Assembly (NCBI RefSeq): GCF_016722895.1
Contig: NZ_JAEQNA010000005.1
Span: 248,001 to 312,000, forward strand
Direction: 5' to 3'
Length of the DNA: 64,000 nucleotides
Source: Ramlibacter aurantiacus
GTDB lineage: Bacteria > Pseudomonadota > Gammaproteobacteria > Burkholderiales > Burkholderiaceae_C
The first letter of the stretch is position 1. Each line of letters begins with the position of its first letter. The notes beneath the pieces were generated by a model. The model ran no database searches and was not told the DNA's origin. It saw only the letters and a program-made list of their open reading frames with translations. The position numbers and the translations under genes are program-made. Below, piece by piece: positions 56,690-63,609 of this stretch.

Positions 56690-56732
56690 GGGAACGCGCC
56701 CACCGCCGCGTTTGGGTGCGATACAAAGGCCC

Positions 56733-57809
56733 ATGGCCGAAACCACCCTCTTCGAACGCCCCATCGAACCCATGCTCGCCAAGATCGCCGAGCAATTGCC
56801 CGAGGGCGAAGGCGTGGTCTACGAGCCCAAATGGGACGGCTTTCGCGCCATCGTCTTCCGCGGCAACGACGGCGTGCGGCTGCAGAGCCGTGACCTCAAG
56901 CCCTTGAACCGCTACTTCCCCGAGCTCGAGAAAGTGCTGGAAGAGCAGCTGCCCAGGGGCTGCATCCTCGACGGCGAGATCGTGGTGGCCGGGCCGAACG
57001 GGCTCGACTTCGACGCGCTGCAACAGCGGGTGCATCCCGCCGCCTCGCGCGTGGCCAGGCTGGCCCGCGAAACACCGGCGGCTTTCGTCGCCTTCGACCT
57101 GCTGGCCGCCGGCGGCCGCAGCACCATGGAGCTGCCGCAGCGCGAGCGCCGCGTGCGGCTGGAGCGGCTGCTGGGCCAGGCCAGGCCGCCGCTTCACCTC
57201 ACGCCCATCACCACGGACGCGGCGCAGGCGCGCGACTGGCTGCAGCGCTTCGAGGGCGCCGGCCTCGACGGCGTGATCGCCAAGCCCGCGGATGCGTCCT
57301 ACCAGCCCGCCAAGCGCACCATGTTCAAGATCAAGCACGCGCGCAGCGCCGACTGCGTGGTGGCGGGCTTCCGCTTCTACAAGGAGACCCGCGACGCGGT
57401 CGGCTCGCTGCTGCTGGGCCTGCATGACGAGGCCGGCCAGCTGCAGCACGTGGGCATCACGTCGTCGTTCACCATGGACAAGCGCCGCCAGCTGCTGGAA
57501 GAGCTTGCGCCGCTGCGGGAGGACGCCATGCAGGATCACCCGTGGCGCGACTGGGCCGAAGCCAGCGCGGGCGATGCCGACCGCATGCCCGGCGCCAAGA
57601 GCCGCTGGAGCGGCGGCAAGGACCTCGGCTGGGAGCCGCTGCGGCCCGAGCGCGTGTGCGAAGTGAAGTACGACCACCTGCAGGGCAAGCGCTTCCGCCA
57701 CGCCACCACCTTCCTGCGCTGGCGCCCCGACAAACCGCCGGCCGACTGCCGCTACGACCAGCTCGAGGTGACCACGCCCCTCGAGCTGGCGCAGGTGTTC
57801 AAGGCTTAG
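56733..57809 (+). CDS. ATP-dependent DNA ligase (LigC/LigD ligase-domain type)
   Basis: The ATG at 56733 gives 358 residues. Nucleotidyltransferase motifs are YEPKWDGFRA with adenylated Lys33, CILDGEIV, FVAFDLL, LDGVIAKPAD and TMFKIKH. The C-terminal OB fold follows, with CEVKYDHLQGKRFRHATTFLRWRPDK. This is the ligase module of bacterial end joining, found here as a free-standing protein. The LigD polymerase module is encoded convergently next to it, and the stop codons overlap by 11 bases. No Ku gene is in the window. Confidence 0.92.
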   Translation: MAETTLFERPIEPMLAKIAEQLPEGEGVVYEPKWDGFRAIVFRGNDGVRLQSRDLKPLNRYFPELEKVLEEQLPRGCILDGEIVVAGPNGLDFDALQQRVHPAASRVARLARETPAAFVAFDLLAAGGRSTMELPQRERRVRLERLLGQARPPLHLTPITTDAAQARDWLQRFEGAGLDGVIAKPADASYQPAKRTMFKIKHARSADCVVAGFRFYKETRDAVGSLLLGLHDEAGQLQHVGITSSFTMDKRRQLLEELAPLREDAMQDHPWRDWAEASAGDADRMPGAKSRWSGGKDLGWEPLRPERVCEVKYDHLQGKRFRHATTFLRWRPDKPPADCRYDQLEVTTPLELAQVFKA

Positions 57810-58824
57810 GCTTCCTGCGCACCGACGGCGGTGCCCGGGGCGGCTCGCCCTCCTGCTTGCGGTAGTGCGGCGGCCAGGGTGCATCGCCCTGACCCGCCGC
57901 TTCGTGCCGCGCCGACAACTCCAGCAGCGGCGCCAGCGAGCACACCGCCTCGTCGATGCCGTCGTGCAGGTCGCCTCGCTCAGCGAAGCGCGCCGGCATG
58001 GTTCGCAGGGTGAAGTCGGCCGGGTCGCAGTCGGCCAGCTCGTCCCAACCCACGGGCGCCGACACCCGCGCGTCCGGCCGCGGCCGCACCGAGTAGGCCG
58101 AGGCCACCGTGCGGTCCTTGGCGTTCTGGTTGTAGTCGAGAAACACCCCGTGCCGCTCCTCCTTCCACCAGGCGCTGGTGGCCAGCTTCGGTGCGCGCCG
58201 CTCCACTTCACGCGCCAGCGCCAGCGCCGCGCGCCGCACCTCGTCGAAGCCCCAGCGCCGCTCGATGCGGGCGATCACGTGCACCCCGCGCGAGCCCGAG
58301 GTCTTGGGCCAGCCGATGATCCGCAGCTCGTCCAGCAACTCGCGCACCACCGCGGCCACCTGCACGATCTGCGGCCACTCCACGCCCGGGGTCGGATCCA
58401 GGTCGATGCGCAACTCGTCGGGGTGGTCCAGGTCGTCCAGCCGCACCGGATGCGGGTGCAGCTCGATGCAGTTGAGGTTGGCCATCCAGGCCAGCGTGGC
58501 CGCGTTGCAGGGCACCACCTCCTCGGCCGTGCGGCCCGACGGGAAGCGCAGCGTGGTGGCACAGACCCACTCGGGCCGGTTCGCCGGCGCCCGCTTCTGG
58601 TAGAACGACCCGCCCTCCAGCCCCTCGGGGTATCGCTTCATCACGCAGGGCCGGTTGCCGGCGCCGCGCAAGGCGCCATCGGCCACGGCCAGGTAGTAAT
58701 TGACGAGGTCGAGCTTGGTGACACCCGCCGCCGGGAACATGAGCTTGCCGGGGCTGGTGATGCGTACCTCGTGGTCACCCGCCCGCACGGTCACGGCGTC
58801 GGCGGGGCGGGAGGAGGCGGCCAT
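57799..58824 (-). CDS. Stand-alone LigD polymerase domain (primase-polymerase)
   Basis: This 341-residue archaeo-eukaryotic primase-like polymerase shows ITSPGKLMFPAAGVTKLDLVNYY, GGSFYQKRAPAN, the metal-binding pair in ELRIDLDPTPG, KTSGSRGVHVIARI with the nucleotide-binding His, and SVRPRPDARVSAPVGWDEL. In Mycobacterium and Pseudomonas it is one domain of LigD, filling gaps with ribonucleotides during end joining. Here it stands alone, convergent with the ligase gene. No 3'-phosphoesterase domain or Ku is seen nearby. Confidence 0.92.
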   Translation of the reverse strand: MAASSRPADAVTVRAGDHEVRITSPGKLMFPAAGVTKLDLVNYYLAVADGALRGAGNRPCVMKRYPEGLEGGSFYQKRAPANRPEWVCATTLRFPSGRTAEEVVPCNAATLAWMANLNCIELHPHPVRLDDLDHPDELRIDLDPTPGVEWPQIVQVAAVVRELLDELRIIGWPKTSGSRGVHVIARIERRWGFDEVRRAALALAREVERRAPKLATSAWWKEERHGVFLDYNQNAKDRTVASAYSVRPRPDARVSAPVGWDELADCDPADFTLRTMPARFAERGDLHDGIDEAVCSLAPLLELSARHEAAGQGDAPWPPHYRKQEGEPPRAPPSVRRKPKP

Positions 58825-60838: not shown

Positions 60839-60846
60839 ACGTAAGA
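60839..60846. repeat. 8-bp target-site duplication, left copy (ACGTAAGA)
   Basis: ACGTAAGA here is identical to the octamer at 63602-63609. Each copy abuts the outer end of a 22-bp inverted repeat. Eight base pairs is the usual duplication length for IS1595-family insertions. Confidence 0.88.
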
Positions 60847-60868
60847 CTGAAGTATGTACGTGACAAAC
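60847..60868 (+). repeat. Left terminal inverted repeat of the element
   Basis: CTG-AAGTATGTAC-G-TGACAAAC. It pairs with the right end, differing at positions 2, 3 and 14 only. It lacks a -10 partner, so unlike the right end it does not look like a promoter. Confidence 0.87.
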
Positions 60869-60947
60869 TAGCTTTGGTTTAAGCCGGTCGCGTACCGTCG
60901 CGCGCATGGACGCGACCGGCTACAGCTACCAAGAGAATCAGCCGCTT

Positions 60948-61769
60948 CTAGGCCGGGGAGGCAGAAGCCTCGGCCGCGATCAAGTCAACGACCTCACGAA
61001 TGAGCTGCAGGCACTGAGACGCCGTTGGGAACAGCGGCTCACCCGCGAAGACTTCAAGGCCCTCGGCGAAAGTTATCTCAGCGGTCGCCTTTCCCTTGTT
61101 TGTCACTTTGAGGTCGGTGCCGCTGGCGAAGCTAGCCAGGGCGATCCGAGAGCCGGTGGGGACTTCAACAGTCGCGCTCCTCATTCCGTGCTTGCCTTGA
61201 GCATCGACCGCGTCCAGCCCGGTGACCTTGACATAGGGGATGCTCGGAACAATCAGGTTGTGCTTGTCGATGTTGTCGAGCTGGCGGACCTCCCATACAC
61301 GGAAGTCCCCTCCACGGTACGGCTTCACTGTTTCCGTCAGCAGGCGCTGAATCCATGGAACGGCTTCGACTATGCGTCGGTTCGTGTTGGGGGGCTTTCC
61401 GGGCCTTGGGGCCATGAAGGATTGGTGGAGCGCCTCCCGCGTTTCGTGGGATGGGAAGGTTACTCGCGCCGTCGCCTTGCCAGCAGCGCGCATCAGCCCG
61501 CTCATGACGTAATCCAGAGCCGCGCTGAGGTTGTGAAAGCCGTCCCCCACGGACAGGATCAGCGGTGCATAGACGGGATTGACCTCAAAGGTGATGAACT
61601 GATTTCCAGTCTCCGGATCACGATCTACCCTGAGTTCGTGGAAGTCGGATTCAAGGTACCTCTGCCACCACGCTTGCGCTTGTCGAAAGTGCTGGTCGGC
61701 CCACTGGACTTTTAGTCTGGCTTGCGTGAAAGCGTCAGCGAGAATCGCTTGATCCAAGGACTCAGACAT
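60948..61769 (-). CDS. Uncharacterised passenger protein with HNL-x3-LDY motif
   Basis: The ATG at 61769 (MSESLDQAILADAFTQARL) gives 273 residues; a start 30 bases upstream is possible. Features are an N-terminal helix, VYAPLILSVGDGFHNLSAALDYVMSGLM, then WEVRQLDNIDKHNLIV and a C-terminal beta-rich part. The GDxxHNLxxALDxxx segment is shared by a widespread group of uncharacterised proteins; I recall no function for it. It lies inside the IS1595-type element. Its start codon overlaps the divergent small gene at 61768 in the palindrome CATG. The opposite-strand frame at 60906-61715 is its shadow. Confidence 0.75.
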   Translation of the reverse strand: MSESLDQAILADAFTQARLKVQWADQHFRQAQAWWQRYLESDFHELRVDRDPETGNQFITFEVNPVYAPLILSVGDGFHNLSAALDYVMSGLMRAAGKATARVTFPSHETREALHQSFMAPRPGKPPNTNRRIVEAVPWIQRLLTETVKPYRGGDFRVWEVRQLDNIDKHNLIVPSIPYVKVTGLDAVDAQGKHGMRSATVEVPTGSRIALASFASGTDLKVTNKGKATAEITFAEGLEVFAGEPLFPTASQCLQLIREVVDLIAAEASASPA

Positions 61770-61911
61770 GACGAAGGTTCCCCCCAGCAAGCCGAACAAG
61801 GATGCGCCATCGCCTCAGTTTGATGACGTGCTCAAGCGCATGCTGTCATCGCCGCCGAAGCAGCACAAGGGTAAGAAACCAGACGAGGCTAAGAAGGCAC
61901 CACACAAGTAA
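61768..61911 (+). CDS. 47-residue basic passenger protein
   Basis: The ATG at 61768 has AAGGA seven bases upstream. The product has 47 residues: MTKVPPSKPNKDAPSPQF, then DDVLKRMLSSPPKQHKGKKP and a lysine-rich tail. It has one short amphipathic helix (FDDVLKRML) between disordered, basic, proline-rich ends. I recognise no family. It is divergent from the 273-residue gene with fully overlapping start codons, an arrangement that makes simultaneous initiation on both strands mutually constrained. Small size lowers certainty. Confidence 0.55.
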   Translation: MTKVPPSKPNKDAPSPQFDDVLKRMLSSPPKQHKGKKPDEAKKAPHK

Positions 61912-62017
61912 GGCGGGGGCTGGGGGCATGCTTTACTGCACCGCAGCAACATAGGGTTCGTGTGCCTTGCTCTGTCTACTGCCTTGTGGAAGGATGGGGC
62001 AGAGAGACAAGTCAGGT

Positions 62018-62254
62018 ATGGCAGCAAGAACCTACAAGAAGCCGGGAAAACCTCCTACAGGTCACACATGCAAGTGCCGAGCGGACATCAACGACAACAT
62101 CCCGCAGAATGCTCATAAGGAGCCTAGGTACGCATTCGGGGAAGCGTCAGCGATGACTTGCGACGAGGCGATCAGGGCAGCAAAAAAGGATGCGGCCCAC
62201 AATTTGGGCGCACAGGCGAAACACACAGCTTGCAAGTGCAATCCAGAGTGCTGA
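62018..62254 (+). CDS. Small cysteine-rich passenger protein
   Basis: The ATG at 62018 gives 78 residues (MAARTYKKPGKPPTGHTCKCRADIN). It ends KHTACKCNPEC, so cysteines cluster as CKC near residue 19 and CKC-x3-C at the end, with one more in between (MTCDEAI). Two possible metal-binding or disulfide clusters flank a helical, Ala/Lys-rich middle. A start 51 bases upstream is possible but less likely. No family is recognised. It is 12 bases before the next small gene, so both are probably co-transcribed. Confidence 0.55.
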   Translation: MAARTYKKPGKPPTGHTCKCRADINDNIPQNAHKEPRYAFGEASAMTCDEAIRAAKKDAAHNLGAQAKHTACKCNPEC

Positions 62255-62266
62255 GAGGAACCAACG

Positions 62267-62509
62267 ATGCGCGACGTAAATGGCAAACCGCTAATTGATG
62301 GAGCGTCAGTTCGGCTGATCCGGGCTCCTGCGGAATTGCTGCGCGGTCTCCCTCTGGAAGACCAAGAGGCAATCAGGTGGGCAACGAACGAAGTCGCCAT
62401 GCGCCTCGTTGGAGCCGATGACTACGGCAATGTCGAACTGGAGTTCAAAGACCCCAGCGGAACTCGCCACTGGATATTCGTGCAGCCAACGTGCGTTGCT
62501 GCCACCTAA
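62267..62509 (+). CDS. Small uncharacterised passenger protein
   Basis: The ATG at 62267 follows GAGAGGA at a good distance and gives 80 residues. The sequence (MRDVNGKPLIDGASVRLIRA, later VGADDYGNVELEFKDPSGTRHWIFV) has the strand pattern of a small beta-barrel, perhaps SH3-like, but this is impression only. It is followed 24 bases later by a strong terminator, so it ends the plus-strand passenger transcript. Confidence 0.6.
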   Translation: MRDVNGKPLIDGASVRLIRAPAELLRGLPLEDQEAIRWATNEVAMRLVGADDYGNVELEFKDPSGTRHWIFVQPTCVAAT

Positions 62510-62533
62510 GAGCCGGCCCGGAGTTTGCAAAAG

Positions 62534-62560
62534 CCCGCCTATGGCGGGTTTTTGTTTTTT
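62534..62560 (+). terminator. Strong intrinsic terminator
   Basis: CCCGCC (62534-62539) and GGCGGG (62543-62548) pair around TAT. They are followed by TTTTTGTTTTTT and preceded by AAAA, so the hairpin could also work for the transposase message from the other strand. Confidence 0.92.
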
Positions 62561-62581
62561 AGTAGACGCTCCAACAGGCTC

Positions 62582-63538
62582 TCAAACGTTGGCTTGGGTG
62601 GGCTGCCCACCAATCCGCCGATAGGTCAGGCGCTTGCCTGCGATGGCCTTGAGCGCTGCTTGCTGGCGGTCCACGTCGCTCCAGCCCTGCGACAGTCGGG
62701 TGTTCCAGCGGAAATCGAACTCATGGCAGTAGCGCTGGAGGTGCTTCTCGCTCACAGCGTGGAAGGTGCCGATCAGGCCGCGCTTGAGCAGCGAGAAGGA
62801 CGCCTCAACGGTGTTCGTGGTCACGTCGCCGCGCGCGTATTCGCCCTGGCCGTGGCTGACCGTTTCGTGTGAGGCGAAGCCCTTCGCGGCCGGGATGTAC
62901 CACTTGGCCTCATCGGTCATCAGACGAGCTGCCGGATGGACTTGAGCCTTGAGGACAGCGCCCAGCGTGGCACCGTTGACTTTTGCGACGTGGAAGGAGC
63001 GCTTCTGGCCGTCGCGCTCGACCAGGGACACGACCATCATCTTGTGACGGAAGCCCCCACGGACGGGCATCTTCTCGCCCTCGTCGTTCGTGGCCGTGCC
63101 CCAGAACGTTTCGTCGGCTTCCACGATGCCAGATGAGCCGGGACCGCCTAGCAGGGTCGCGTTGTCGCCGGTCATGGCCTCGCGAATGCGATGGCACATG
63201 AACCATGCCGTCTTGTAGGTCACGCCCAGCATGCGCTCAACCTGCTTGGCGCTGATGCCCTTCTTGCTGGCGCACATCAGATGCACGGCTTGGAGCCAGA
63301 GGTTCAGTGGCACCTTGGAACGCTCAAAGACGGTGCCCACGGTGACGGTGAACTGCTCATAGCAGTCGGCGCACTTGTAGAGGCCAGGGCGGTACTGCTT
63401 GCCCTTGAGAACGAGGTGCTTGCCGAGCGATCCGCAATGCGGGCAGACCGGGCCGTGCGGCCAGCGCAGAGCCTCAAGGTACTCGCGGGCCTTGTCTACG
63501 TCTTGGAACTGCGGCTGGTTGAGGATCGCTTCGGCCAT
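62582..63538 (-). CDS. IS1595-family (ISXO2-like) transposase
   Basis: The 318-residue protein has an N-terminal zinc ribbon (CPHCGSLGKH and CADCYEQF, around residues 32-61), a helix-turn-helix-like region (ISAKQVERMLGVTYKTAWFMCHRIREAM), and the DDE/N catalytic domain starting IVEADETFWG. A later acidic residue lies in LMTDEAKWY and the terminal motif is NTVEASFSLLKRGL. The frame is intact. Translation appears controlled by the hairpin at 63543-63560. It is the mobilising gene of the element at 60847-63601. Confidence 0.95.
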   Translation of the reverse strand: MAEAILNQPQFQDVDKAREYLEALRWPHGPVCPHCGSLGKHLVLKGKQYRPGLYKCADCYEQFTVTVGTVFERSKVPLNLWLQAVHLMCASKKGISAKQVERMLGVTYKTAWFMCHRIREAMTGDNATLLGGPGSSGIVEADETFWGTATNDEGEKMPVRGGFRHKMMVVSLVERDGQKRSFHVAKVNGATLGAVLKAQVHPAARLMTDEAKWYIPAAKGFASHETVSHGQGEYARGDVTTNTVEASFSLLKRGLIGTFHAVSEKHLQRYCHEFDFRWNTRLSQGWSDVDRQQAALKAIAGKRLTYRRIGGQPTQANV

Positions 63539-63542
63539 GGTC

Positions 63543-63560
63543 GTTCTCCAGTAGGAGAAC
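63543..63560 (-). promoter_or_regulatory. Hairpin sequestering the transposase ribosome-binding site
   Basis: On the minus strand GTTCTCC (63560-63554), loop TACT and GGAGAAC (63549-63543) form a perfect 7-bp stem. The GGAG inside the 3' arm is the only Shine-Dalgarno candidate, seven bases before the ATG at 63538. mRNA containing both arms should be poorly translated. Confidence 0.7.
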
Positions 63561-63588
63561 TATGCGCCTCGCACATAGGGTTTGTCAA
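63559..63588 (-). promoter_or_regulatory. Transposase promoter embedded in the right inverted repeat
   Basis: TTGACA (63583-63588, perfect -35) and CATAGT (63559-63564, 4 of 6 at -10) are 18 bases apart on the minus strand. The -35 lies inside the terminal inverted repeat. The predicted start, near 63551-63553, falls in the loop of the RBS hairpin. Confidence 0.6.
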
Positions 63589-63601
63589 GTACATACTTGC
63601 G
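63580..63601 (-). repeat. Right terminal inverted repeat of the element
   Basis: Read on the minus strand: CGC-AAGTATGTAC-T-TGACAAAC. It matches the left end at 19 of 22 positions and abuts the right target-site octamer. Confidence 0.87.
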
Positions 63602-63609
63602 ACGTAAGA
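63602..63609. repeat. 8-bp target-site duplication, right copy (ACGTAAGA)
   Basis: Identical to 60839-60846. Removing the element plus one copy would rejoin GACGCAAT-ACGTAAGA-ACTATCGT as the ancestral intergenic sequence. Confidence 0.88.

Follow-up and report, generated by a model that had tools for sequence, protein, structure and literature searches.

The IS1595 family of insertion sequences (IS) was reportedly defined in a 2009 paper by Siguier, Gagnevin and Chandler, in which passenger genes may be described. The features of the family in ISfinder are its transposase domains including a zinc ribbon, 8-bp target repeats and inverted repeats. Passenger-carrying IS are a known class (tIS), in which genes unrelated to transposition are enclosed together with the transposase between IS ends, according to the part of the source consulted (PMC7986276). 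Tn3-family transposons carry type II toxin-antitoxin pairs beside their res sites, and these conflict-type genes are exchanged at res between similar transposons (PMC7157771, consulted in part). Variable cargo with defence genes is described for Tn7-like transposons in the portion covered of PMC8649781. Here we describe a transposon in a 64,000-nucleotide stretch of Ramlibacter aurantiacus (contig NZ_JAEQNA010000005.1, positions 248,001 to 312,000), which is called the window below and in which positions are counted from the first letter. The element is a complete IS1595-family transposon and belongs, with a probability of roughly 0.6, to a branch that combines a backbone with an exchangeable gene, where the exchangeable genes may encode effectors and a small protein may control them.

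The window element has all the family features listed in ISfinder, but its branch differs in having a second gene that is conserved and, next to it, a gene that can be exchanged. Compared with the tIS described in the part consulted, one extra gene is near-constant in the branch while the other is swapped, with the point of exchange at its start codon or close by. Unlike in the Tn3-family pairs, no resolvase gene was seen, the two genes are divergent, the small partner is constant and the exchange takes place at a CATG common to both start codons. Unlike Tn7-like transposons, these elements mostly have a single slot beside the fixed small gene and are 2-4 kb long. Passenger-carrying transposons as such are already known; going by the literature covered, the organization of this branch appears to be new. 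A literature search, which covered few subscription journals and did not include the 2009 family paper, revealed no account of this small protein, of IS1595 elements that pair a constant small protein with a divergent neighbour open to exchange, or of IS1595 elements that swap genes where two start codons overlap.

The element extends from 60847 to 63601 (2755 bp) between two exact copies of the octamer ACGTAAGA (60839..60846 and 63602..63609). Its 22-bp ends, CTGAAGTATGTACGTGACAAAC on the left (60847..60868, plus strand) and, inverted, CGCAAGTATGTACTTGACAAAC on the right (63580..63601, minus strand), are identical at 19 of 22 positions. As a null we used 400 cross-locus pairings, of which 2 combined ends agreeing at 17 or more of the 22 positions with an exact 8-bp repeat on their outer sides, so the arrangement in the window is not due to chance. 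The transposase gene (62582..63538, minus strand) has an open frame of 318 residues. Its product matches the DDE domain PF12762 (DDE_Tnp_IS1595) over residues 136-279 (9.3e-33, 113.8 bits, cut-off 27), the zinc ribbon PF12760 at the N-terminus (2.7e-14, 53.3 bits, cut-off 25.4) and the NCBIfam model NF033547 (1.6e-61, 207.9 bits, cut-off 75). DDE domain, zinc ribbon, 8-bp duplication and terminal inverted repeats are all found; a zinc ribbon is missing only from IS1595 transposases of the IS1016 group, as stated in the part seen of PMC8101967. An earlier note, made from the letters of the window alone, had proposed a complete IS1595-family transposon enclosing other genes, with an intact transposase, and had given the ends and octamers that were found here. 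The own genome contains one copy of the element, and the identical 8-bp repeats are compatible with the fairly recent insertion which that note had suggested.

The conserved second gene (61768..61911, plus strand) encodes a protein of 47 residues (FDDVLKRMLSSPPKQHK), whose family is mostly basic and proline-rich. The whole element was used as a DNA query against 60 genomes of the genus, of which 10 matched (own genome included in both figures); six congeneric elements with both ends (L016 to L021) were read. Each of the six is flanked by its own exact 8-bp repeat. The ends of L016 to L020 are close to those of the window, those of L021 are more diverged, and each element holds ~1.6 to 2.7 kb besides the transposase gene. 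When the seven elements were compared with each other as DNA (21 pairs), the transposase could be aligned each time. Besides transposase and ends, five of the 21 pairs have a stretch of 46 to 106 bp in common, which lies within a tiny open reading frame (ORF) corresponding to the 47-residue gene of the window; L018 and L020 additionally have parts of their larger gene in common, and an 85-bp stretch elsewhere is common to L019 and L021. The small gene of all seven elements encodes an invariant L-x-R-x4-PP core. The 47-residue ORF is therefore not an incidental passenger.

Beyond the genus, 398 genomes of the phylum were searched with a model of eight small peptides; 12 matched, the own genome among them, and an IS1595 transposase is located in the same short locus for nine of the 11 non-own matches. 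With the transposase as query, 52 of the 398 genomes (own included) gave a match at 1e-20, and 79 places were listed. We fetched 40 of these, namely the strong ones not already in the set and 22 weaker ones. Ends were called by rule on 48 loci (these 40 and eight from the small-protein search), resulting in 32 delimited elements. Two of them, L115 and L118, are bare elements of ~1.0-1.1 kb and the remainder measure 1.8 to 5.8 kb; L107 and L121 are possibly wrongly delimited. L073, L077 and L080 fell outside the end calling, and L022 is interrupted by a contig end. The 32 elements, the window, L014 (an element on a Mesorhizobium plasmid) and the six congeneric elements form a set of 40. In a leave-one-out analysis, the small protein was detected within the element in 22/40 cases at E<=1e-3, 23/40 at 0.05 and 27/40 at 1, versus 1/40, 1/40 and 6/40 outside the element. 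The single outside match at 0.05 (L107) lies ~500 bp from a transposase. L083 has no called ends and is not part of this count, although its small-gene start is among the 33 considered below.

Membership of the window's branch was defined by a transposase score of at least 240 bits, with the elements of the own genus and L014 included by identity. At the 0.05 threshold the small protein occurs in 23 of the 25 elements of this branch versus none of the 15 of the distant branch. Among branch elements found via the transposase search it is present in 10 of 12, or in 15 of 17 when five elements on both search lists are added. In 329 genomes, a wider small-protein model matched at 16 non-own places, and a listed transposase lies within ~2.4 kb of 15 of these; seven of the eight places absent from the model are near a transposase, and all seven are already known loci. 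The small gene is probably translated, because the proportion of nonsynonymous differences (pN) is below that of synonymous differences (pS) in 6/6 pairs from four elements of genus g309, with ~16 synonymous sites each. In L079 (3310-4413) the small-protein motif forms the C-terminus of a trypsin-like protein, a natural fusion. As to the distant branch (L100-L121), 12 of its 15 delimited elements are 1.8-4.6 kb long and one is 5.8 kb; they hold other DNA and lack the small protein.

The larger gene adjoining the small gene differs from element to element. In the window it encodes a 273-residue protein with the motifs HNLSAALDY and NIDKH (60948..61769, minus strand), and neighbours of this HNL type also occur in L014, L128 and L070, the last of which carries a PemK toxin gene as well. 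HEPN-like neighbours, with R-[NDGV]-x3-H near residue 100, are found in L016, L019, L021, L074, L078, L083, L085, L086, L159, L162 and L163. DUF3800 neighbours score above the Pfam cut-off in L073, L094, L097 and L099 and below it in L088. L092 has a NYN neighbour and L071 a DUF1828 neighbour, both above the cut-off and neither divergent, whereas the neighbour in L079 is the Trypsin_2 protein (above cut-off) fused to the small-protein motif. The neighbour in L076 is HNH-like with a Pfam score below the cut-off, and the other neighbours carry no label. In PADLOC, the DUF3800 protein of L097 matched PDC-M04A (1.7e-18), the NYN protein of L092 matched HEC-09 (1.3e-24), and the protease of L079 matched LmuA (4.1e-6) as well as PDC-S45. 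The HEPN-like alignment comprises 12 proteins, including one from L087, where no small gene was found. R and H are present in 12/12, as expected of a set selected for this motif, and the residue after R is mostly N or D. The glutamate found at one column in 11/12 was no selection criterion; it agrees with the HEPN domain description in the part consulted of PMC3710099. These neighbours are putative members of the HEPN ribonuclease superfamily.

In the window, the HNL gene and the small gene are divergent and their start codons overlap as CATG (61767..61770). Eleven of 30 small genes allow such an overlap, or 14 of 33 when L128, L159 and L164 are added. For control ORFs of the same loci, a CATG with an open antisense frame of at least 120 codons was counted in 49/580 and 94/1054 cases (8-9%). 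The binomial value for 14/33 against these controls is 3e-7, a rough figure given the relatedness of the 33 small genes and the mechanical definition of the control ORFs. In L019, L078, L088, L094, L097 and L099 the divergent starts are possibly 5 to 29 bp apart. Different neighbours joined to a near-identical backbone were found in genus g309. Among elements L085, L086, L159 and L164, identity to L085 is 94-96% for the transposase end and 87.5-90% for the small-gene start, while their neighbour genes show no DNA alignment with each other. DNA similarity returns at CATG in L086 and L159 and 7 bp before CATG in L164, whose neighbour protein is similar to none of the others.

A further junction was observed in L128, an IS1595 element on a viral contig that begins inside the transposase gene. 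Compared with L014, the C-terminal transposase part of L128 is 81% identical, the small protein 77% and the HNL protein 30%; compared with the window, the respective values are 45%, 44% and 52%. L128 joins a transposase and small protein of the Mesorhizobium type to an HNL protein of the window type. Across 28 elements, the small protein varies with the transposase (Mantel rho 0.50, 0/999 permutations), and the tie between neighbour type and transposase is far weaker (rho 0.14, 17/999). Taken together, the g309 junctions, the L128 chimera and this correlation pattern mean that, as far as can be judged from comparing sequences, neighbours are exchanged beside a near-constant small gene. In L128 (1-2035), the HNL gene and the small gene are positioned directly upstream of genes that by eye encode a phage terminase. 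Since these terminase-like genes adjoin the element on a viral contig, elements of the branch may ride on phages.

The g309 elements also provide an empty site. In G775 (L160), left flank and right flank are joined by a single AAAAATAT, and the same site is filled in G708, G785 and G697; this directly shows the 8-bp duplication for a related element. In G777 and G784 this left flank continues, at AAAAATAT and AATAATAT, with different IS1595-type ends and with transposase starts that, going by the letters, point the opposite way. The site AGGAAAAATATCCT (L160, L085, L086, L159, L161, L163) is thus empty in one species and holds different IS1595 elements, in both orientations, in others. It is likely a favoured site, and its target is near-palindromic.

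As comparison shows, the backbone consists of the two ends, the transposase and the small-protein gene. A variable gene adjoins the small gene, often divergently and often with the shared CATG start codons, and in the window this is the HNL gene. With the junction at or near CATG, as in the g309 elements and in L128 versus L014 and the window, different variable genes have been joined to almost the same backbone. We propose that the variable genes encode toxin- or defence-like effectors acting in conflicts (phage defence or addiction), which would either be of use to the host or penalize loss of the element. Restraint of the effector could come from the small protein or from the antisense overlap of the divergent transcripts. 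In its broadest form, the proposal would make the IS1595 branch, whose members come from several families of the phylum to which the window belongs and from a plasmid of Mesorhizobium, a plug-in carrier with the small protein as common controller of many different toxic or defence effectors and CATG as exchange joint; this extension is tentative, and we hold it to be less probable than its negation.

Several findings weigh against a backbone with exchangeable, controlled effectors. Two branch members with ends, L087 and L089, have no detectable small gene, and no divergent neighbour is found at the small-gene start of L018, L020, L071, L072, L075, L092, L096 and L098. The small protein is also tied, if weakly, to neighbour type (rho 0.19, 3/999, same 28 elements), and it is unlikely that a single small protein acts as specific antitoxin for different effectors. 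The effector character of the neighbours is affected by the PADLOC scan, in which seven of ten neighbour proteins gave no match at <=1e-4 (three matched), and by the HEPN-like set, whose label comes from the selected motif and which has no significant profile match in Pfam or PDB. The HNL protein of the window reaches the cut-off of no Pfam family and has no match at E<=1 in NCBIfam, PHROG or PADLOC, and S and Y replace the R and H of the HEPN Rx4-6H motif. Its AlphaFold model, made from three sequences, has a mean predicted local distance difference test score of 39.5 and is unusable for comparison. HNL homologues also occur in fetched loci that contain no IS1595 transposase (L013, L125, L126, L127). 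In g309, some neighbours resemble each other as proteins (L086/L162 39.7 bits, L085/L159 27.7, L086/L159 24.3), being at most distant relatives. Moreover, the transposases are more alike (94-96% identity) than the flanks (85-94%) in each of the three filled pairs, with the largest difference for L086, and the empty-site species G775 is placed among the filled ones. Repeated independent insertion at the favoured g309 site therefore fits as well as replacement in place.

The element might instead be an ordinary tIS, an IS1595 insertion sequence with randomly acquired genes in which only the transposase and the ends are organized. Precedents exist in the tIS class, 13 of the 15 delimited elements of the distant branch exceed 1.8 kb without a small gene, and the 78/80-residue gene pair of the window is also found beside an IS1-type transposase. 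Against random acquisition stand the presence of the small gene in 23/25 branch elements, its variation in step with the transposase and its position at a junction of a recurrent type, and we regard this explanation as improbable. The overlap of the start codons could be a chance product of the palindrome, as any C before ATG creates an ATG on the opposite strand. C precedes ATG in 224 of 580 control ORFs, and some of the 30 small genes offer alternative ATG starts, which also weighs against a fixed exchange joint. Against chance stand the excess of 14/33 over both control counts, with the reservation that the 33 are not independent, and the return of nucleotide similarity at CATG; chance alone is the least probable of the explanations weighed here.

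Two other explanations take the small protein as functional but assign it a different role, and we consider each of them rather unlikely, to the same degree. It might be a transposition accessory factor, for instance one that controls transposase activity or targeting, and the variable genes would then be incidental; in favour of this role, both its sequence and its presence track the transposase more closely than they track the type of neighbour. The small gene nevertheless usually adjoins the variable gene, often with a common start site, and its fusion partner in L079 is a protease in the variable position. A type II-like toxin-antitoxin pair, with an HNL, HEPN-like or DUF3800 toxin and the small protein as direct antitoxin, would agree with the two-gene unit, the small partner and the several RNase-like neighbours, and the partly consulted Tn3 study (PMC7157771) offers a precedent. 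The genes of type II modules form one operon, whereas these genes are divergent with overlapping start codons, and one small-protein family stands beside different effector families, unlike specific antitoxins.

If the branch is built as a backbone with an exchangeable gene, the small protein, recognized by an L-x-R-x4-PP-like core inside IS1595 ends, would serve as a sequence handle for collecting effector genes systematically, comparable to the conserved neighbours formerly used for finding defence genes. The arrangement raises the question of how one small protein coexists with different effectors and why the starts share four bases. A small protein that restrains the effectors would be a general controller of a new kind; otherwise it would be a near-constant transposon part that is easily overlooked through its small size.

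The HNL gene has 273 codons from the ATG at 61769 on the minus strand and 283 from a TTG further upstream. Homologues of its product are encoded in the IS1595 elements L014, L070, L089 and L128 and elsewhere. The motif HNLSAALDY is found in the window and L128, and the homologue in L013 reads RSALDH at this place. HEPN membership was considered for the HNL protein and rejected because the motif is missing. PADLOC gave 0 matches at E<=1 for the four non-transposase proteins of the window. In L125 (1399-2253), a locus in which no IS1595 transposase was found, the HNL homologue adjoins genes that by eye resemble a phage lysis region.

Two further genes lie between the small gene and the transposase gene. 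They encode a 78-residue protein with two CxC motifs (62018..62254, plus strand; ATG at 62018, or 95 residues from a TTG further upstream) and an 80-residue protein (62267..62509, plus strand), and they also adjoin each other in L015 and L025. In L015 (11179-12676, G038:C123), from a congener, the two proteins are 81% and 77% identical to those of the window and are encoded next to a transposase of IS1 type (PF03400). That IS1-type element has two end-like repeats of 27 bp, which are direct, not inverted. The matches in L025 are weaker and, for the 78-residue protein, partial. Among 349 genomes searched from the order, five gave a match to the 78-residue protein, with the own genome counted and most of the matches weak; scans of a viral collection revealed no relatives of either protein, and plasmid searches with both gave no match. 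The pair is a second, independent passenger unit that is not tied to IS1595. The earlier note had counted the ORFs of 273, 47, 78 and 80 residues as four unknown passengers. All four are indeed present inside the element, but the 47-residue ORF is a conserved part of the transposon branch, the position of the HNL gene holds different genes in relatives, and the 78/80-residue pair recurs outside IS1595 in the congener.

A perfect 12-bp subterminal palindrome with a 16-nt loop is located close to the left end (60882..60921). A terminator-like hairpin followed by a T run (62527..62555, plus strand) separates the 80-residue gene from the convergent transposase gene; three terminator-like sites were found, against a shuffle mean of 2.4. 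The gene to the left of the element matches PF13761 and is the DUF4166 gene next to which the earlier note had placed the insertion. In a search for the empty site of the window's own insertion, the left flank of the element gave some match in 33 of 59 genomes of the genus (own included), and long matches in other genomes of the genus have 66-76% identity. The right flank, compared with 29 left-flank loci from other genomes, did not align beside the left flank, save for one 38-bp match. Elsewhere in the window (56712-58824), adjoining genes resemble by eye an ATP-dependent DNA ligase and a LigD-type polymerase of end-joining repair.

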